Positions 602 to 16,398 of a stretch of 64,000 bases of DNA are shown here, in pieces. Both the position numbers and the translations under genes were made by a program. Source of the stretch: Neglectibacter sp. X58. GTDB taxonomy: Bacteria > Bacillota > Clostridia > Oscillospirales > Acutalibacteraceae. The stretch lies in the NCBI RefSeq assembly GCF_009936035.1, contig NZ_QWEO01000004.1:62001-126000 (forward strand), read 5' to 3'. Position 1 is the stretch's first letter, and each line of letters starts with the position of its first letter. The notes beneath the pieces were generated by a model that was given only the letters and a program-made list of their open reading frames with translations, was not told the origin of the DNA and searched no databases.

Positions 602-3836
<3,235 letters not shown>

Positions 3837-7104: not shown

Positions 7105-9207
7105 TCACACCCCGAACAATAAATCCCCATATGTCGGGAACGGCCAGTCTTTTTGGCCAACCATAGACTCGGCTTTGTCGCAGGGCTTCCGCAGGGCCTC
7201 CATGGCCGGGATGATCTCCCCCTTTACCAGGAGCGCCTGGGCGGTCACATCCACAGCCCTATCCAGTGCGGTAAGCTTTTCCGCAAGGGCATCCGCTGCC
7301 TGGTCAATCTCGTCCAGAAGCCCGGAGATCGCGGCGCTGGCTTTCTTCTCATATCCGCTCACAAGGGCTGGGTCAACTTTTGCCTTGTCGGCCATAGCCG
7401 CTGCCAAGCTTCCGGCGTACCGCTGCACAGCGGGCAAAATCTCCCGCCTGGCCATGTCCTCCATGGTCAGGGCCTCTATCTTGACTGTGCGGGTGTAGTT
7501 TTCCAGTTGGATCTCATAGCGGGAACGCAATTCCCCCTCTGTAAAGACCCCGTTCTTCAGCAGCATTTCCATATTCCCCTTGTCCAGCAGGTGCGCCATG
7601 GCGTCGGGCGTTGTAGGCAGGTTTAAAAGGCCGCGCTTTTCCACAGCTTCTTCTATCCATTGGCCATCGTAGCCGTTCCCATTAAAGAGGATGCGCTTGT
7701 GGGAAATGATGGTTTCTTTTATCAATCCATGCAGGATGGCGTCAAAATCGCCGGCCCCTTCCAGGATGTCGGCGAACTGCCGGAGGGCTTCAGCCACTGC
7801 CGCGTTGAGCATGATGTTGGCACAGGCGATAGAATCCCCTGACCCTACCATGCGGAACTCGAACTTATTGCCTGTAAAAGCAAAGGGGCTGGTACGGTTG
7901 CGGTCGGTAGTGTCCTGGGTGATGCGGGGCAAGGCGTCCACACCCAGCTTCATCTTTTTCTGGGCTGTCCCCTCATAGGGGCTGTCCATCTCGATAGCTT
8001 CCAGGATGGCCGAAAGCTCGTCACCCAGGAAGATGGAAACCACGGCGGGGGGCGCTTCGTTTGCCCCCAGGCGATGGTCGTTGCCTGCGGTGGCCACGCT
8101 TAAACGCAGCAGGCTCTGATATTCGTCTACCGCCTTGATGACCGCCACCAGGAACAGCAGGAACTGGGCGTTCTCATAAGGGGTCTCGCCGGGAGAGAGA
8201 AGGTTTACCCCGGTGTCTGTTGCCATAGACCAGTTGTTGTGTTTGCCGCTGCCGTTTACCCCGGCAAAGGGCTTTTCGTGCAGCAGGCACACCAGGCCAT
8301 GCCTGCGGGCCACCTTCTTCATAATCTCCATAGTCAGCTGGTTGTGGTCGGTAGCCACGTTGGTACTGGCGTAAATGGGCGCCAGCTCGTGCTGGGCAGG
8401 GGCAACCTCGTTATGCTCGGTTTTCGCCAGGATGCCCAGCTTCCACAGCTCTTCATTGAGGTCATCCATATACGCCTGCACCCGGGGCTTGATGGAGCCA
8501 AAATAGTGGTCCTCCAGCTCTTGGCCTTTGGGCGGGTTCGCCCCAAACAGCGTGCGGCCTGTATAAATCAAATCCTTGCGCTTAAGGTACATGTCCCGGT
8601 CCACCAGAAAGTATTCCTGCTCCGGACCCACATGGGTGATGACGCGGCTGGCCGCTGTGTTGCCGAACAGCCGCAGGATACGCAGAGCCTGTTTATTTAA
8701 GGCTTCCATGCTGCGCAGGAGAGGCGTTTTTTTATCTAAGGCTTCCCCGCTGTAGGAACAGAACGCGGTGGGGATGCACAACGTCTTATCTTTAATAAAA
8801 GCAAAGCTGGTGGGATCCCATGCGGTGTAGCCCCGGGCCTCAAAGGTCGCCCGCAGGCCGCCGGAAGGGAAGGAGGAGGCATCCGGTTCGCCGCGGATGA
8901 GTTCTTTCCCGGAAAATTCCATAATAACCCGGCCGCCAGGAGCAGGGGTGATGAAAGAGTCATGCTTCTCCGCGGTGATGCCTGTCAACGGCTGGAACCA
9001 GTGGGTAAAGTGGGTTGCCCCGTTCTCTACAGCCCAAGTACACATAGCGGTGGCCACGGCATTTGCCAAGGATAAATCCAGCCGGACGCCCCGCCGGATA
9101 GTCTGCTTTAAAGAACGGTATACTTCTGGGGTCAGGCGGGCGCGCATGGCCTGTTCATCGAAAACTTTACTGGCGAAAAAATCCGGCACATGATGTGGGG
9201 TCTGCAT
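7105..9207 (-). CDS. glnN: Glutamine synthetase type III
   Basis: It makes glutamine from glutamate, ammonia and ATP. The 700-aa length and the opening ([14 protein letters not shown], then HWFQPLTG and EKHDSF) are those of the GSIII family, which is much longer than GSI (about 440 aa). Active-site stretches such as [19 protein letters not shown] and GSGKHNNWS are intact, so this is the catalytically competent synthetase of the island. It is the first gene of a six-gene operon with amtB, purF, asnB, pyrG and dapF. The ribosome site is AAAAGGAGAG. Confidence 0.95.
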
Positions 9208-9240: not shown

Positions 9241-9300
9241 AAAAACGAAGAGAGGCAACGGCGTCTGCGGGGGGCTTTCCCGTAGACGCCGTTGTCTCTC
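9241..9300 (-). promoter_or_regulatory. Leader hairpin with U-tract upstream of glnN; candidate ANTAR-controlled terminator
   Basis: Read on the minus strand, 9300 to 9250 folds into a 22-bp stem with a 7-nt AAAGCCC loop and two A.C mismatches, followed by TTCGTTTTT (9249-9241), so it resembles an intrinsic terminator. It lies only a few nucleotides after the predicted transcription start. An alternative fold pairs CGUUG with CAACG (loop AGAGA, A1 and G4) and leaves an inner hairpin with hexaloop AAAGCC (A1, G4), the ANTAR signature. That fold would break the outer terminator stem. The plus-strand copy pairs perfectly with two G.U wobbles, so structure may also matter on that strand. Confidence 0.65.
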
Positions 9301-9310
9301 AACGCCGACT

Positions 9311-9339
9311 AGCATACACTCATTTTTGCAAGTTGTCAA
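9311..9339 (-). promoter_or_regulatory. Sigma-A type promoter of the glnN operon
   Basis: On the minus strand TTGACA (9339-9334) and TATGCT (9316-9311) are separated by 17 bp. Initiation would be near 9304-9306, immediately before the leader hairpin. Confidence 0.8.
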
Positions 9340-9415: not shown

Positions 9416-9445
9416 TTGACAAACTCAAGTTGCATATCGTATAAT
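9416..9445 (+). promoter_or_regulatory. Sigma-A type promoter of the glutamate synthase operon
   Basis: TTGACA (9416-9421) and a perfect TATAAT (9440-9445) are separated by 18 bp. The start would fall near 9452. It is divergent from the glnN promoter with about 75 bp between the -35 boxes, leaving room for a shared regulator site. Confidence 0.85.
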
Positions 9446-9454
9446 AAGAGGCAA

Positions 9455-9500
9455 GGACAAAGGCGTTCGTGGAATTGCGTCTTTATGTCCTTTTTTATTT
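9455..9500 (+). terminator. Leader terminator between promoter and glutamate synthase genes
   Basis: GGACA (9455-9459) plus AAGGCG pairs with CGTCTT and TGTCC (9486-9490), and six T residues follow at once, then ATTTT. It starts within about 5 nt of the predicted transcript start and ends before the ribosome site at 9502. Transcription would stop unless it is overcome, so this is an attenuator by position. Confidence 0.7.
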
Positions 9501-9516
9501 TGGGAGGGACTTACCT

Positions 9517-10620
9517 ATGATACGACCGGAGCTTTTTGAAGGGCAAGTCCGCATCCCTTCCGGCTGCGCTATTTCAGCGGTGATCTCGCGGGAGGGGCGG
9601 CTTATCAGCGGCCAGACCATTGTGGACAGTATGCGCCCCATGCATGAGCGGTCAAACGGGTTGGGGGGCGGATTTGCGGGGTACGGCATTTATCCCGAAT
9701 ATAAAGATTTCTTTGCCCTGCACATCTTCTATGATACGGATGAGGCCCGTGCCGCCGTTGAAGCCCATCTGCGCGCTGTGCTGGAGATTGTCCGGGCAGA
9801 GAACATCCCCACCCGCAAGCACCCAGCCATCACGGCCGAGCCTTTTATCTGGCGCTATTTCGTGGCCCCCCTGCGGTCAGTGCTGCATAGCTGCCAGCAG
9901 GATGAGGAGGAATTCATTGCCCGCCTGGCCATGCGCGTCAATACAGGCTATCCAGGGGCATACGTGTTCTCCAGCGGGAAAAATATGGGCGTGTTCAAGG
10001 CCGTGGGCTACCCCGAAGACGTAGGCGAATTTTACCGCCTGGAAGAATACAGCGGCTACTGCTGGACTGCCCACGGCCGCTATCCCACGAACACCCCCGG
10101 CTGGTGGGGCGGGGCGCATCCCTTTGCGCTGCTGGACAGAACCATTGTCCATAATGGCGAGATTTCTTCTTACGACTGCAACCGCCGCACCATCGAGATG
10201 TATGGCTACAAATGCACCCTGCAAACGGATACAGAGGTCATCACCTACATTGCCGATTTTTTACAGCGCAAGCAGGGCCTCACACTAGAAGAAATGGCCT
10301 CGGTAATCGCCGCGCCCTTCTGGTCTACTATAGAACGGCAGCCAAAAGGCAAGAGCCGGGAGTTGGCGTATCTGCGCACAGTCTACTCCAGTTTGCTGAT
10401 TACCGGGCCGTTCTCCATTATTTTGGGCTTTCGCGGCGGGCTGATGGCCCTGAACGACCGCCTGAAATTACGCAGCATGGTGGTGGGCGAAAAAGATGAC
10501 AAGGTCTACATAGCCAGTGAAGAAGCGGCTATCCGCGCAGTGGAGCCAGGCGCGGAAAACATCTGGGCCCCGGCGGGGGGCCAGCCCGTGGTAGTGCGGG
10601 TGCGGGAGGGGGCATATTAA
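9517..10620 (+). CDS. Glutamate synthase, class II glutaminase domain subunit
   Basis: This is the amidotransferase piece of a split (archaeal-type) glutamate synthase, releasing ammonia from glutamine. The probable Ntn nucleophile is Cys17 in RIPSGCAISAVIS, implying removal of a 16-residue propeptide. Downstream glutaminase-fold motifs include WTAHGRYPTNTPGWWGGAHPF, IVHNGEISS and QTDTEVI. The ATG at 9517 has a GGGAGG site; an upstream GTG at 9469 lies inside the leader terminator and is unlikely. The 367-aa protein lies 2 nt before the FMN subunit. Confidence 0.9.
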   Translation: MIRPELFEGQVRIPSGCAISAVISREGRLISGQTIVDSMRPMHERSNGLGGGFAGYGIYPEYKDFFALHIFYDTDEARAAVEAHLRAVLEIVRAENIPTRKHPAITAEPFIWRYFVAPLRSVLHSCQQDEEEFIARLAMRVNTGYPGAYVFSSGKNMGVFKAVGYPEDVGEFYRLEEYSGYCWTAHGRYPTNTPGWWGGAHPFALLDRTIVHNGEISSYDCNRRTIEMYGYKCTLQTDTEVITYIADFLQRKQGLTLEEMASVIAAPFWSTIERQPKGKSRELAYLRTVYSSLLITGPFSIILGFRGGLMALNDRLKLRSMVVGEKDDKVYIASEEAAIRAVEPGAENIWAPAGGQPVVVRVREGAY

Positions 10621-10622
10621 AA

Positions 10623-12122
10623 ATGGGGCAATGGGAAGTTTATCCGGAATTTGAAGTGGTGCGCAGCAGCGCCCGCTGTACAAAATGTTTGGGCTGTGTG
10701 GCCCAGTGCGCTAACGGGGTGCATCAATACGACGGGGTACAACTGACCTGCGACAGCGCCAAGTGTGTGGACTGCCACCGCTGTGTAGCCATGTGCCCCA
10801 CCCGGGCGCTGAAAATCGTAAAGGCGGACTGTGCCCTGCGGGAAAACAGCAACTGGGACAGCCAGACTATCAAAGAGATCTTTAAGCAGGCCCAGAGCGG
10901 CGGCGTCCTCCTGAGCAGCATGGGCACGCCAAAGCCCTATCCCGTCTATTGGGACAAGCTGCTGCTCAATGCCAGCCAGGTGACCAACCCCTCCATTGAC
11001 CCCTTGCGGGAGCCTATGGAGACCCGCGTCTGTCTGGGCAAGAAGCCGGACAAGCCCCAGCGCGGGCCGGACGGCCGCTTTACCTGTGAGCTGCCGCCCC
11101 AGCTGAAGCTTGCTATGCCCATGCTGTTTTCAGCTATGAGTTACGGCTCTGTCAGCTATAACGCCCACGAGGCCCTGGCCCGGGCGGCAGAGGAACTGGG
11201 CGTCTACTATAATACCGGCGAAGGCGGCCTGCATGAAGATTTTTACGCTTACAGCCCTAATACCATTGTGCAGGTGGCGTCAGGGCGGTTTGGGGTGCAC
11301 GAAGGGTACTTAAACGCCGGGGCGGCCATTGAAATCAAGATGGGGCAGGGGGCCAAACCAGGCATTGGAGGGCATCTGCCCGGGACAAAGGTGGGGGCCG
11401 ATATTTCCCGCACCCGCATGATACCCGAGGGCAGCGATGCTATCTCCCCGGCCCCCCATCACGATATTTATTCCATTGAGGATCTGCGCCAGCTGGTGTA
11501 TTCCTTAAAGCAGTCCACCCATCACAAAAAGCCCGTCATTGTGAAGGTGGCGGCTGTGCACAACATCGCGGCTATTGCCAGCGGCATTGCCCGCAGCGGC
11601 GCAGACATTATCGCCATAGACGGCTTCCGGGGCGGTACAGGCGCCGCCCCCACCCGAATACGGGACAATGTGGGCATCCCCATTGAGCTGGCCCTGGCGG
11701 CGGTAGACCAACGCCTGCGGGATGAGGGGATACGGAACCAGGTAGGCATCATCGCCGGAGGGAGCATACGCTCCTCGGCAGATGTGGCTAAAGCTATCGC
11801 CCTGGGCGCAGATGCGGTTTATATTGCAACGGCGGCGCTGCTGGCGCTGGGCTGCCATCTGTGCCGTACCTGCCAGACGGGTATGTGCAACTGGGGCATT
11901 GCCACCCAAAGGCCGGAACTGGTGGCCCGTTTAGACCCCAAAGAGGGGGCGAAACGCCTGGTAAACCTAATGACCGCCTGGAACCACGAGATTATGGAAA
12001 TGCTGGGCGGCATGGGCATCAATTCTATAGAGGCCCTGCGGGGCAACCGTTTGATGCTGCGGGGCATTGGGCTAACGGCAAAGGAACTGGAGATTTTGGG
12101 CGTAGCCCACGCGGGGGAATGA
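10623..12122 (+). CDS. Glutamate synthase, FMN/iron-sulfur subunit with N-terminal ferredoxin domain
   Basis: It forms glutamate from 2-oxoglutarate and the ammonia supplied by the glutaminase subunit. The N-terminus carries two 4Fe-4S motifs (Cys19/22/25/29 and Cys48/51/54/58). The centre is the FMN-binding TIM barrel of GltB (SAMSYGSVSYNAHEAL, GEGGLHED, GGTGAAPTRI). CHLCRTCQTGMC near the end matches the 3Fe-4S loop of GOGAT. No NADPH-oxidising beta subunit lies nearby, so electrons probably come from ferredoxin (inference). The length is 499 aa. Confidence 0.93.
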   Translation: MGQWEVYPEFEVVRSSARCTKCLGCVAQCANGVHQYDGVQLTCDSAKCVDCHRCVAMCPTRALKIVKADCALRENSNWDSQTIKEIFKQAQSGGVLLSSMGTPKPYPVYWDKLLLNASQVTNPSIDPLREPMETRVCLGKKPDKPQRGPDGRFTCELPPQLKLAMPMLFSAMSYGSVSYNAHEALARAAEELGVYYNTGEGGLHEDFYAYSPNTIVQVASGRFGVHEGYLNAGAAIEIKMGQGAKPGIGGHLPGTKVGADISRTRMIPEGSDAISPAPHHDIYSIEDLRQLVYSLKQSTHHKKPVIVKVAAVHNIAAIASGIARSGADIIAIDGFRGGTGAAPTRIRDNVGIPIELALAAVDQRLRDEGIRNQVGIIAGGSIRSSADVAKAIALGADAVYIATAALLALGCHLCRTCQTGMCNWGIATQRPELVARLDPKEGAKRLVNLMTAWNHEIMEMLGGMGINSIEALRGNRLMLRGIGLTAKELEILGVAHAGE

Positions 12123-12153
12123 TCCCTGCGCAAAGTAAAGGAGGCGCGGTATA

Positions 12154-12876
12154 ATGGCCTATAAAATAATGGCCCAAGGCTTAGACGCGGCCGGGCTGGG
12201 CAGGCAGATCCAAGCGCACCCCGGCCCGGTAGAGGTTGTGGGATGCCTGGGGCAGCGGTTTATCGGGGCGGGGATGCACGGAAAGAAAATTCGTGTTACA
12301 GGCATACCGGGAAACGCCCTGGGGGCCTACCTCAACGGCGGTGAGATAGAAGTGTGCGCAAACGCCCAAGACGCTGTAGGCGACACCATGAATGCCGGCA
12401 CCATTGTGATCCACGGGGATGTGGGCGATACGGTAGGATACGCCATGCGGGGCGGGGAAATCTATGTGGAAGGCTCGGCGGGCTACCGGGCTGGGGTGCA
12501 TATGAAGGAGTACCAGGACAAGGTGCCGGTAATGGTCATCGGCGGCCGGGCCGGCAGCTTCCTGGGGGAGTACCAGGCTGGCGGGGTGATCTTGGTGCTG
12601 GGGCTGACGGGTTCAGGCCCCATTGCCGGGAACTTCCCTTGTACGGGCATGCATGGCGGCAAGGTGCTGCTGCGGTGCCGACCGGAAGAACTCCTTTTCC
12701 CCGGCCAGGTGACGGCCCTTCCGGCATCTCCCCAAGACCTGGATGCCGTGCGGCCATATTTAGAAGAATTCTGCCGCCGCTTCGGCAAAGACCTGGCGTT
12801 TATTCTAAACGCCCCCTTTACCCTGGCGGTCCCGGACAGCCGGAATCCGTACCGGCAGATGTATGTAGCCAATTGA
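12154..12876 (+). CDS. Glutamate synthase, GXGXG (C-terminal) domain subunit
   Basis: This is the beta-helix domain of GltB as a separate 240-aa protein. It has the characteristic run of glycine-rich repeats (GDTMNAGTIVIHGDVGDTVG, GGRAGSFLGEY). In the full enzyme this domain positions the glutaminase and synthase sites; it has no catalytic residues of its own. An AAAGGAGGCG site precedes the start. It completes the split glutamate synthase with the two upstream genes. Confidence 0.92.
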   Translation: MAYKIMAQGLDAAGLGRQIQAHPGPVEVVGCLGQRFIGAGMHGKKIRVTGIPGNALGAYLNGGEIEVCANAQDAVGDTMNAGTIVIHGDVGDTVGYAMRGGEIYVEGSAGYRAGVHMKEYQDKVPVMVIGGRAGSFLGEYQAGGVILVLGLTGSGPIAGNFPCTGMHGGKVLLRCRPEELLFPGQVTALPASPQDLDAVRPYLEEFCRRFGKDLAFILNAPFTLAVPDSRNPYRQMYVAN

Positions 12877-12889
12877 CAGGAGGATGCCT

Positions 12890-13669
12890 ATGGAATTTAC
12901 CCAAGACGATGTATTGTGTTATGTGAAAAGCGAAGATGTGAAATTTATCCGTTTGGCGTTCTGTGATACCGAAGGGCGCCAGAAGAATCTGGCCGTTATG
13001 CCGGAGACGCTTCCCCGGGCGTTCTCCCAAGGCATTCCGGTAGATGGCCGCGAGTTGCCGGGTTTTGGAGCAGGGCCTGTGCTTTTGCGCCCAGACCCCA
13101 CAACTTTGCTGCAAATGCCCTGGCGGCCCCAGCACGGGCGGGTGGTGCATATGTTCTGCGATCTGGTGGCCCTGGACGGTACGCCCCACCCCCAGGATAT
13201 CCGGTGGCAGCTGAAAGAGCTTGCACAGCAGATGGAGTGTACTGTAGCGGCAGAGATGCTTTTTGCCCTGTACAAACTGGACGAGCAGGGCCGCCCCACA
13301 ACTGAACCCCAGGACGAAGCCGGGTATCTGGACATAGCCCCCACAGACCGCGGGGAGAATGTGCGCCGGGCCATCTGCCTAACCCTGGAGCAGATGGGCA
13401 TCCAGCCGGAAAGCTCCCACCACGGGGCGGGGCCAGGAAGGAACCTGATCCGCTACCAGGGCGCAGGCCCTCTAAAGGCTGCGGACAACATGGTAACTTT
13501 TCAGGCAGTGGTACGCACAATGGCAGACCAAAACGGGCTTTTTGCAGAATTCCCCCATCCTCCCCGGCTCTTCATAACCCAGGGGGCTAACGTGCGGGAA
13601 GCCGTGCCCCAAAAGGGCTGGCAGAACCCGTACCGGCTCATGGCAGCTCTGGTACGAGGGCAGGTGTAA
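12890..13669 (+). CDS. Truncated glutamine synthetase I-like pseudoenzyme, possible nitrogen sensor
   Basis: The 259 aa align to the N-terminal beta-grasp and the first half of the catalytic domain of GSI (VKFIRLAFCDTEG, YLDIAPTDRGENVRR, TFQAVVRTMADQNGL). The protein ends where GSI continues with GSGMH. Metal and substrate ligands are lost: the GSI stretch HHEVAPGQHEI reads HHGAGPGRNLI here (Gly179, Arg184, Asn185, Leu186), and the second Glu of EPE is Leu124. It cannot be a working synthetase. The start at 12890 has AGGAGG at ideal spacing. It lies between glutamate synthase and an ANTAR regulator, 4 nt from the latter, which suggests a regulatory partner role. That role is inferred. Confidence 0.85.
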   Translation: MEFTQDDVLCYVKSEDVKFIRLAFCDTEGRQKNLAVMPETLPRAFSQGIPVDGRELPGFGAGPVLLRPDPTTLLQMPWRPQHGRVVHMFCDLVALDGTPHPQDIRWQLKELAQQMECTVAAEMLFALYKLDEQGRPTTEPQDEAGYLDIAPTDRGENVRRAICLTLEQMGIQPESSHHGAGPGRNLIRYQGAGPLKAADNMVTFQAVVRTMADQNGLFAEFPHPPRLFITQGANVREAVPQKGWQNPYRLMAALVRGQV

Positions 13670-13673
13670 GCAT

Positions 13674-14261
13674 ATGGTATTCGAACCGGAGCCTTATAGT
13701 GTACTTATTGTCTCCCCAGGCGACCGCTTCCGGGAAAGCCTGTCCCCTCTTCTGCCTCCAGGTTCCTTTAACCCGGTTTGCGTTGCCCGCAGCTGTGCTG
13801 AAGCAAGGCGGAAGCTGCTGGAGCGGGGGTTTGATCTGGTTCTCATCAATTCCCCCCTGCCCGATGGCCCAGGCCTGCCTTTAGCGGAGGATCTGTGCGC
13901 CGAAACAGAAGCCGGGGTCCTGCTGTTGGTTCCGGCGGGGGTCTACGAGGAAACCGCTGCCCAGGCCCAGCAGAGCGGGGTAATCACACTGCATAAACCC
14001 AGCAGCCGGCTTCTGGCTTCACACAGCCTGCAAGCCCTCTGCGCTATGCGGGAACGGCTGCGGGCACGGGGCCGCAGGCAGGTTGCGGTAGAAGAGAAGA
14101 TCCGGGAGTTGCAGATGATTGACCGGGCTAAGTGGGTGCTGATAGATAAGAAGGGCTTTACAGAGCCGGAAGCCCACCGGGCCTTAGAACGTATGGCGAT
14201 GGAACAACGCATAACAAAGGTGCAGGCTGCTCAGCGGGTAGTGGGGGGAATATCAATTTGA
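13674..14261 (+). CDS. ANTAR-domain transcription antiterminator with degenerate receiver
   Basis: The N-terminal 120 residues have a receiver fold (YSVLIVSPGDRF, DLVLINSPLPDGPG). The phospho-acceptor Asp is replaced by Asn59, so phosphorylation control is unlikely. The C-terminal 60 residues match the ANTAR RNA-binding domain (EEKIRELQMIDRAKWVL, GFTEPEAHRALERMAM). ANTAR proteins bind paired hairpins in leader RNA and block terminators; NitR, next to glnA in solventogenic clostridia, is a precedent. Likely targets are the two leader hairpins between glnN and the glutamate synthase genes. It is the last gene of the plus-strand nitrogen operon. Confidence 0.9.
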   Translation: MVFEPEPYSVLIVSPGDRFRESLSPLLPPGSFNPVCVARSCAEARRKLLERGFDLVLINSPLPDGPGLPLAEDLCAETEAGVLLLVPAGVYEETAAQAQQSGVITLHKPSSRLLASHSLQALCAMRERLRARGRRQVAVEEKIRELQMIDRAKWVLIDKKGFTEPEAHRALERMAMEQRITKVQAAQRVVGGISI

Positions 14262-14350: not shown

Positions 14351-14570
14351 TCAATGAGGCGTCTCTTGATTTGAAATCCGAACATGTTTTTTCTGATTAT
14401 TCCCATTCCACCGCTCTACAGCCCACAGAACCACAAGAGCTATCATGAGCATCCCGCCGCTGGCCAGCGGCAGAACAAACGCAGGCCATATTTCTGATAG
14501 GCCGCCTGCAAGGACGAGTGACAGCGGAATCAGCACATAGGAAATGGCTGTGGATAGGCGGCGGAAACCT
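14351..14570 (-). pseudogene. C-terminal fragment of an unidentified membrane protein
   Basis: A reading frame with two hydrophobic stretches (VLIPLSLVLAGG, then GMLMIALVVLWAV) ends with a basic tail. It has no start of its own; its upstream part runs into the parA remnant in another frame near 14530-14576. It looks like the tail of a membrane protein joined to parA by a deletion. I do not recognise the family. Confidence 0.5.
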
Positions 14571-15362
14571 TGCCTATAGGGTCGTGTAAATATATACTCT
14601 TGCCCTCCGCGCTGGTTTCCGCGGCCCGGATGGATTCGGGGATGATGGTGTCAAAGATACGCAGCTTGTCCCCATAACTCTCCCGCAGCAGGGCTACAAT
14701 GTCCCGGGAATAAGCGGTGCGCATATTTGCCATAGTGATAAGGATGCCGGAGATTTGCAGGCTGGGATTGAATTTGCGCCGCACCAGCCCGATGGTGGCT
14801 AGAAGCTGCTCCAGGCCCTTAATGGACAGATAGTGGGCCAGCATGGGGATAATCACTTCGTCCGCCGCTGTTAAGGCGTTGGCGGTGAGGGTGCCCAAGG
14901 ACGGGCAGCAGTCCAACAGGATGTAATCGTACTGGCCGCGCACAGCTTCCAGAAGCTCCCGCAGAACCGTTTCCCGGCCCATGACGCCCACCAGGTTCAT
15001 TTCCACCATGGCAAGGTCGATGTTGGCGGGCAGCAGGTCAACCCCTTCGTCCTGGTGCAGTATGTAGTCCGCAGGGTTAAAAGGCTTTTGCTGGACGATC
15101 TCACCCAGCACAGTAGAAACCGTTTTCTCGATCCGGTCTGGCTGGTGGAAGCCAAGGCTTGCGGTAAGCGGTCTCGCCTGCCGGCTCGGTCAGTTCGCAC
15201 CAGAGCGCCACCGGCGCTCGCTCACCCTTGTGGGTCAACGTCCACCAGCAGGACGCGTTTGCCTTGGCGGGCTAAGCCGATGCCCAGGTTTACTGTGGTG
15301 ACGGTTTTGCCCACGCCGCCCTTTTGGTTGCAGACGGCAATAATTTTTGTTGTTTTGCACAT
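14530..15362 (-). pseudogene. Disrupted ParA/Soj-type ATPase
   Basis: The N-terminal part (15362-15225) has the deviant Walker A motif [15 protein letters not shown] and ends at DPQG, directly followed by a stop. The ParA sequence resumes in a different phase at TASLGFHQPDRIEKT from about 15165 and continues through DYILLDCCPSLG, IIPMLAHYLS and ESIRAAETSAEGKS. About 59 extra bases with a palindrome (15203-15219) separate the two parts. The normal C-terminus is also missing, replaced after GKVSAAY by foreign sequence. The start at [10 protein letters not shown] has an AGAGGG site. It probably came from a plasmid or conjugative element. Confidence 0.85.
15166..15224. repeat. Short insertion interrupting parA, with internal palindrome
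   Basis: This is the stretch that does not fit the ParA coding sequence. It holds the perfect hairpin GAGCGCC-ACC-GGCGCTC (15203-15219). Its origin is unknown. Confidence 0.5.
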
Positions 15363-15469
15363 ATTTTTATCCCTCTTTTTGACTGTTGAAAGTTTGTCGT
15401 TCATATAACGCCGCTGTTTTCCACCCCTCTTTTAAGAGCCATTTTCTGCCCCTTTTTTACTGGAAAAAG

Positions 15470-15879: not shown

Positions 15880-16398
15880 TTGCAAAATCTTTATTATAAA
15901 TTCATCGTCTTTGTCGGTGAATTACATATCACACCCACGAAACGGTGGACAGCGTTGCCCGCCAAACACTGTACGGTGTGCGGCGTTGAATATGTCCCTG
16001 GCTCTGGAATATCGAAGTATTGTCCTGCTTGTGCCAAGAGGATACAGAGGGAGAAGTCAAACGAGAGCAAACGCAGGAACAGGGAACAGAAAAGGATGGT
16101 ATGTATTGAACTGTCCGCAAAAAATGATCGACTGATCCAGTACACCTCGCAAGCATACTTCAACCTAACCAAAGAATACGGCATTACGCCCTCTATGTCA
16201 AGACGTGGAAACTGCTACGATAATGCAATGGCTGAGAATTTTTTCTCCATTCTGAAAACTGAATGCATCTATCGGCAGAAAACCAAGACTTTTCAGTTGG
16301 CCAGAGAATTAATTGGCGATTTCATTTATTTCTACAATCACGAGCGCATCCAGTTAAAAACTGGAGAAGCACCGCTTGCGCGACGCCTCTCCGCTTAA
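15880..16398 (+). pseudogene. Chimeric frame: Cys-rich fragment joined to the end of an IS3-family transposase
   Basis: The first part contains HCTVCGVEYVPGSG and YCPACAKRIQREK, a zinc-ribbon-like piece typical of small mobile-element proteins. From about 16135 the frame becomes the C-terminal rve region of an IS3-type OrfB: QYTSQAYF, SMSRRGNCYDNAMAENFF, FYNHERIQLKTG, ending LARRLSA. The transposase lacks its first catalytic Asp residues. The join looks like a deletion or a decayed insertion and is not a functional gene. Confidence 0.8.

Follow-up and report, generated by a model that had tools for sequence, protein, structure and literature searches.

A truncated glutamine synthetase-like protein of Neglectibacter as a candidate partner of the adjacent ANTAR antiterminator

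Glutamine synthetase (GS) of the Bacillus type is an active dodecamer or tetradecamer that holds a regulator at its Glu304 flap, Arg62 loop and thong; in the feedback-inhibited enzyme (FBI-GS), glutamine contacts Glu304 with its amide group, Arg62 in turn holds Glu304, and the rings are connected by thong helices (PMC9249791; PMC numbers denote PubMed Central papers). The ANTAR antiterminators AmiR and NasT receive their input from a protein partner (PMC3795266). NitR of Clostridium saccharobutylicum is an ANTAR protein described in a review as inducing GS and glutamate synthase (GOGAT) genes under nitrogen limitation (PMC6316151), and in Clostridium thermocellum the ANTAR gene Clo1313_2030 is clustered with the type I GS (GSI) gene Clo1313_2031 and the GOGAT genes Clo1313_2032 to 2036 (PMC4676874, PMC9888227). 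ANTAR, GS-like and GOGAT genes also share one cluster in Neglectibacter sp. X58, within a window of 64,000 nucleotides that is the whole stretch of DNA analyzed (contig NZ_QWEO01000004.1, positions 62,001 to 126,000). Here, the GS-like gene (12890 to 13669, plus strand) encodes a truncated GS-like protein of 259 amino acids (MEFTQ...), which may be a reduced, GS-derived regulatory partner of the ANTAR antiterminator encoded next to it.

The coding part of the GS-like gene spans 12890 to 13666 and ends with the stop codon TAA at 13667 to 13669; after a gap of 4 nt follows the ATG of the ANTAR gene (13674 to 14261, plus strand), in agreement with the position behind glutamate synthase and 4 nt before an ANTAR gene that a sequence-only reading had given. 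The protein consists of an N-terminal beta-grasp, the start of the catalytic domain and an NPY-type tail. It matches Pfam Gln-synt_N (7.8e-13) and Gln-synt_C (1.1e-18), the latter at positions 18-137 of 344 alone, and thus the first 40% of the catalytic model is covered and the complete catalytic fold is absent. Only one of the six metal ligands is retained. Leu124, Gly179 and Arg184-Asn185-Leu186 are substitutions, and Glu122 and His177-His178 are kept. Also absent are the E flap with the catalytic Glu304 and the C-terminal helical thong of the double ring. These data verify the earlier description of half a GSI enzyme whose ligands are replaced and whose C-terminal half is gone. Roles of the metal ligands are general knowledge on GS, apart from the points credited above to the FBI-GS paper; Bacillus subtilis residue numbers were transferred through a relative (L086). 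Residues 2-233 align to B. subtilis-type GS with an E value of about 1e-47, and the alignment ends at about residue 225-233. The 34-residue tail after residue 225 closes in the NPY-type helix and was modeled as two strands and a helix; its resemblance to the C-terminal helix of GS is suggestive only. A compact model (37 sequences; pLDDT 90, pTM 0.88) predicts that the fragment folds, and it matches type I GS structures with a TM score of 0.82 by fragment length and 0.49 by full-enzyme length.

The proposed likeness to FBI-GS and its partners TnrA and GlnR lies in a transcription regulator that is informed of the nitrogen status through contact with a type I GS. The differences are that the partner there binds DNA, whereas here an altered or dead GS-like protein stands beside a partner of an RNA-binding type, and that the Glu304 flap, the Arg62 loop and the thong are all absent from the window protein. 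Glutamine sensing at the GS pocket, which had been suggested for this protein, is unsupported for the window copy, since the elements of Bacillus GS that respond to glutamine, namely Glu304, Arg62 and the thong helices, have all been lost. A reduced partner or adaptor fits better than a glutamine sensor.

Proteins of about 400 amino acids form the family of which the window protein is a truncated relative, and of this GS-like family, encoded beside ANTAR genes, it is the most reduced member found. We surveyed the family in three sets: 77 stretches around the GS matches of 99 relatives (first set); 80 loci that were the best matches to an alignment of paired GS, which represent the branch nearest the window and not an unbiased sample (named set); and 70 typed loci, the 30 best and 40 picked down the list, from 293 genomes of the class, 154 of which had matches (class sample). 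The class locus G480 entered the sample two times (as L277 and L333) but is counted once, and five loci recur between sets (L192=L037, L222=L048, L240=L049, L285=L062 and L289=L040). An ANTAR gene lay downstream of 59 GS frames of the first set, at -209 to +381 nt, the overlaps stemming in part from first-start calls of open reading frames. These pairs often stand behind split GOGAT genes and beside a gene for type III GS (GSIII); no more than 13 of the 59 are found in long stretches that lack GOGAT-like genes. The split-GOGAT match exceeding 500 bits was missing from 23 paired loci, 8 of which have short or cut upstream sequence (cut GOGAT pieces in L043 and L049); a large frame resembling GltB lies close by in L057 and L089, and others have lower-scoring amidotransferase frames. 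A downstream ANTAR gene was detected by hidden Markov model in 77/80 loci of the named set, among them that of Neglectibacter timonensis (L222), of the same genus as the window; of the remaining three, L201 and L230 hit a contig end, and in L209 the GS-like gene is immediately followed by an ANTAR domain, in a frame (about 3480-3660) that has no receiver domain. The class sample held 56 distinct paired GS genes, 11 unpaired ones and 5 cut by a contig end. Hence, the GS-like/ANTAR neighborhood, for which the sequence-only reading had proposed a survey, is conserved well beyond this genome.

Fewer than six metal ligands were found in 25/59 paired copies of the first set (three of them, L087, L106 and L107, cut or gappy) versus 0/18 unpaired copies, from which the fragment L108 was left out, and in 9/56 paired versus 0/11 unpaired copies of the class sample. 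Metal ligands have thus been lost repeatedly and, among typed copies, only in ANTAR-paired ones, in line with the suggestion of a dead GS paired with an ANTAR protein. On the tree of the first set, the change between Glu and Lys at position 304 occurs once, whereas the ligand state changes at least nine times (single-site losses and the gappy L087 included), and all rows with a loss are paired; clear losses of several ligands mark the window clade and the clade of L071, L074, L077-L079 and L081-L083. Retention of catalytic ligands by homologues, which would have spoken against the earlier reading, was found in part: 75/80 named copies keep all six ligands, but most have the flap residue changed. 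Indeed, residue 304 is Lys in 78/80 (Arg in one, a gap in one), residue 62 is Asp or Gly in place of Arg in 75/80, and the last 35 residues, which form the ring-joining tail, are shortened, mostly to 9-13. Asp62 and Lys304 occur together in 22/59 paired copies of the first set, 59/80 named copies and 14/56 paired copies of the class sample; unpaired GS has Arg62 with Glu304 in 16/18 and 11/11 cases. The exchange of Glu304/Arg62 for Lys304/Asp62 indicates that the flap contact was remade with the charges reversed, and the Lys304 branch has probably abandoned the double ring. This series suggests a path from an enzyme with a regulatory side job to a dedicated partner, then a dead partner and finally the half protein of the window, if it was traveled in that direction. 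Furthermore, GS and ANTAR distances correlate with a coefficient of 0.89 (63 loci), the highest of six pairs among four genes, and still with 0.78 after removal of the signal of the flavin mononucleotide (FMN) subunit of GOGAT (two other pairs so treated gave 0.57 and 0.68), which is support for a partnership, not proof.

If the paired GS-like proteins were ordinary or altered ligases that merely share an operon with the antiterminator, there would be no physical partnership and the window copy would be a late remnant. The intact metal ligands in 75/80 named and 47/56 paired class-sample copies are as expected from such enzymes, as are the equivalents of Arg298, Arg316 and Arg335, retained in 79/80 named copies, and GS is a regulated gene of NitR in the review quoted (PMC6316151). 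There, GS is a regulated enzyme, and the passage in question is silent on any sensing function, change of the flap or truncation. Co-transcription does not account for Lys or Arg at position 304 in 79/80 copies, for ligand loss only in paired copies, for the cut ring-joining tail, for the pairs away from split GOGAT genes or for purifying selection on a fragment that has no active site. We consider this explanation unlikely, and it is the one that survives best beside a regulatory partnership.

The GS-like partner could also be a vestige, no longer needed in the genus, being shortened and lost and with little function left; the gradation from complete through dead GS to a half protein points this way, as do relatives with an ANTAR gene in which no GS-like gene was detected (six of 62 relatives with an ANTAR gene at E 1e-10, of which G011 and G093 end at the contig border). 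However, the short gene is present in four species of the genus, the own one and three at 95, 94 and 71% identity (29 genomes surveyed, 21 with a match), and the ratio of nonsynonymous to synonymous substitution rates (dN/dS) of the fragment is 0.15-0.20 in all six pairs of these species, with dS values of up to 1.4 and no internal stops. In the same species, dN/dS was 0.14-0.21 for the ANTAR gene, 0.13-0.22 for the GXGXG subunit of GOGAT and 0.04-0.06 for the FMN subunit, so that the fragment is constrained about as closely as the first two. The occurrence of the same gene in three further species, together with these ratios, is more than chance, and the short gene is under purifying selection and is a real gene, not decay. 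Its compact and confident model also argues against a vestige, which we regard as more doubtful still than mere co-transcription. In a sample of 394 genomes of the order, the short form was found, among the matches listed, only in two of the same four species; rows with frames of 336-358 amino acids (G431, G111, G217) were not counted as short forms.

The neighboring ANTAR protein (195 amino acids) has a pseudo-receiver, a coiled coil and an ANTAR domain (Pfam, 1.1e-13). Its phospho-acceptor position is Asn, not Asp, and among 78 ANTAR proteins of the named set this position is Asn in 73, His in 3, Cys in 1 and Asp in 1; in the first set, Asp is kept in three (L054, L069, L072). The N-terminal acidic pair of the receiver is replaced as well, with VSA or VSS in 57/78. 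The receiver is therefore unlikely to take its input by phosphorylation, and a partner protein is the natural alternative. This recalls AmiC-AmiR and NasS-NasT, in which a ligand-binding protein is paired with an ANTAR antiterminator; gene adjacency and a pseudo-receiver are found here too, but the partner has a GS fold and not the fold of a solute-binding protein. The best match of the ANTAR model was EutV bound to RNA (6ww6, TM score 0.72), and AmiR gave 0.54-0.59. EutV contacts RNA through Arg142, Lys143, Lys147, Lys149, Glu160, Tyr164 and Met172 (PMC8934654). Several of these residues are kept: Lys149, Glu160 and Met172 correspond to K153, E164 and M176, invariant in 30/30 sequences; Lys147 corresponds to Arg151, and Tyr164 to His168, as in AmiR. 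Unlike EutV, the window protein lacks the phosphorylatable Asp of the receiver. Four loci (L342, L343, L344, L346) encode an ANTAR protein of the same family, without the Asp in all four, and have no GS-like neighbor; in each, the ANTAR gene is followed by a frame resembling carA (carbamoyl-phosphate synthase) by eye.

The locus is a divergent pair, with GSIII (700 amino acids; 7105 to 9207) on the minus strand and split GOGAT, the GS fragment and the ANTAR gene on the plus strand. The GOGAT genes encode an amidotransferase subunit (9517 to 10620), an FMN/4Fe-4S subunit (10623 to 12122) and a GXGXG subunit (12154 to 12876). The amidotransferase gene likely starts at ATG 9517 and not at the listed GTG 9469, since the latter sits inside the leader terminator. 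In ANTAR targets, the first position of the hexaloop is A. Positions 1 and 4 are conserved, with G at position 4 (PMC8934654), and such an A1/G4 hexaloop overlapping a terminator is present in both leaders of the window. Downstream of a promoter-like TTGACA-18-TATAAT sequence (9416 to 9445, plus strand), a single hairpin GGAC[AAAGGC]GTTC (9455 to 9468) lies close to where the GOGAT transcript is predicted to begin and overlaps an intrinsic terminator with a T-run (9453 to 9499; -15.6 kcal/mol). On the minus strand, the GSIII gene has a promoter-like TTGACA-17-TATGCT sequence (9311 to 9339), a hairpin AGAC[AACGGC]GTCT (9284 to 9297) and an intrinsic terminator followed by a T-run (9241 to 9300; -40.3 kcal/mol with flanks, z -7.3). 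The loops thus read AANGGC, and the loop and the 3' arm double as the 5' arm of the terminator. Read-through of a leader had been part of the earlier suggestion, and ANTAR-type attenuators do precede GOGAT and GSIII.

A scan of the window for dual hexaloops gave nothing with a T-run, and therefore we searched for single hexaloops; no upstream second hexaloop (P1) was found on the transcribed strand of the two window leaders, and at the gathering threshold of Rfam the leaders were unmatched, a tRNA being the sole match. Since a single hexaloop is the minimal site of EutV (PMC8934654), leaders with one hexaloop are plausible targets. They share with the EutV targets the hexaloop with positions 1 and 4 kept over a terminator, and differ from the dual-hexaloop type in that a lone hexaloop close to the transcript start is the rule. 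In the first set (1.77 Mb, both strands together), 81 hexaloop-over-terminator elements were found, 69 of them at GOGAT, GSIII or GS starts; ten shuffles and five control loops gave 0-1 each. In the named set, 65 elements lay at starts, with 24/32 visible GOGAT, 24/33 visible GSIII and 7/77 GS starts represented. A promoter of the TTGACA-TATAAT type lies just upstream in 53/69, with the hairpin 3-22 nt from the -10 element (6-13 nt in 47), compared to 1/61 other terminators and 95/20,000 random positions, and hence the RNA is predicted to begin at or close to the hexaloop hairpin. Four of the 69 (L034 2364+, L035 2365+, L036 2364+, L045 2381+) arise from the opposite strand of GSIII hairpins that are palindromes, and their removal leaves a promoter count of 53/65. 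A second hexaloop lies upstream in 4/69, and two of these cases vanish with the same removal. Covariation in the hexaloop stems is partly circular, the elements having been chosen for at least 4 pairs. In L040, L048, L051, L053 and L060, the GSIII leader contains a tandem of two attenuators, both of this type.

Within the own genome, 61 matches to the pattern RVCAANGGCGTY compare with 41 to the reversed pattern. Five of the 61 lie in the window and 52 in 50 scanned loci, and four (C109, C112, C150:53653, C160) were left out. Among the matches examined, the GOGAT leader, the GSIII leader and one AATGGC element (C49, L146) passed the filters; we took the latter as chance, as it lies within long open frames on both strands, of 793 codons on the opposite one. 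Elements with other loops also passed the terminator filter in these loci. One pattern match (C138) sits in a frame that resembles asparagine synthase by eye.

A third alternative is that the fragment binds GSIII and relays its feedback-inhibited state to the ANTAR protein, or forms mixed rings with GSIII: PF00120 has three matches in the genome, two long GSIII-size frames and the fragment, with no full-length GSI found by this model, GSIII is the divergent neighbor with the same leader type and the fragment retains part of the GS fold, but the thong and flap by which GSI binds regulators are absent, and we consider this improbable.

With a regulatory partnership between the GS-like protein and the ANTAR protein, which strikes us as somewhat probable as a whole, the following mechanism can be proposed. 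By analogy with AmiC-AmiR and NasS-NasT, the GS-like protein would bind the ANTAR protein through its phosphorylation-dead pseudo-receiver, depending on nitrogen status. It would hold the ANTAR protein back in nitrogen excess, activation being less likely, and the ANTAR protein would be a positive factor, as NitR is. Release would allow the ANTAR protein to attach to the one AANGGC hexaloop with which the GOGAT and GSIII transcripts begin and to prevent the overlapping terminator, and upon nitrogen limitation GOGAT, the GS-like gene, the ANTAR gene and GSIII would be transcribed. Members of about 400 amino acids, in which the metal site survives and the Glu304-Arg62 contact is replaced, mostly by Lys304-Asp62, would bind a ligand and make no glutamine; that this ligand is perhaps glutamate or 2-oxoglutarate, not glutamine, is a guess from the change of charge. 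In the window clade, the pocket is gone, the part binding the ANTAR protein would be kept and nitrogen status might be conveyed by how much of the protein is present or by a further protein, for example GSIII. We infer here the binding and its sign, as well as the ligand and read-through. Deletion of the type I GS is said, in the title of a 2017 study by Rydzak, to deregulate nitrogen metabolism in C. thermocellum, which fits a negative partner because that GS gene adjoins an ANTAR gene. More tentative is the wider proposal, to which we give somewhat less than balanced confidence, that a family of retired GS proteins is the dedicated input of the pseudo-receiver ANTAR proteins of Clostridia, with a Lys304-Asp62 sensor, no double ring and 5'-end attenuators with one hexaloop, of which the window has kept the ANTAR-facing half.

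Several findings weigh against a regulatory partnership. Glu304 is kept in 30/56 distinct paired GS of the class sample and, as stated, all metal ligands in most of them, so that pairing does not require a dead enzyme; a distant unpaired copy (L109) has Phe304 and another unpaired one (L110) Pro62. The sign of control rests on the analogy with NitR, the window copy keeps no known ligand site and a search for GS-ANTAR fusions found none. Four genomes (G047, which is only 59% complete, G048, G052 and G058) keep the ANTAR gene, directly behind the GXGXG gene in G048, with no GS-like neighbor and no GS-like match at E 1e-5; their receivers also lack the phospho-acceptor Asp, and hence another input must exist there. 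Elements away from recognized starts make up 12/81 in the first set and 22/87 in the named set. Finally, Arg142 of EutV is not kept, and Lys143 is Arg147 in the family and Gln in the window.

Beside these genes, about 1.7 kb separate the FMN and GXGXG subunit genes of GOGAT in L040 and L042 and about 1.9 kb in L342, where the insert holds frames that resemble a ferredoxin and a flavin adenine dinucleotide (FAD)-dependent oxidoreductase by eye; since the two genes are adjacent in the window clade (12119-12154 in the window), the electron donor for GOGAT would be encoded elsewhere. Downstream of the ANTAR gene, a gene for a ParA/Soj-like ATPase (by eye; 14530 to 15404, minus strand) looks broken, with its start at 15222-15404, the rest at 14530-15111 and about 110 bases between. 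It adjoins a remnant at 15880 to 16398 (plus strand) whose end resembles the C terminus of an IS3-type transposase by eye.

In searches of the open PMC literature, we found no paper that describes a GS-like protein as the sensor for an ANTAR protein. If the proposed partnership is true, it would join GS as a reporter of nitrogen status with the small-molecule partners of ANTAR proteins, and many Clostridia would gain a testable route of nitrogen sensing. The single-hexaloop leaders would provide a simple and searchable ANTAR target. Moreover, a glutamine synthetase annotation in these genomes may conceal a regulator, a point of importance to metabolic models.
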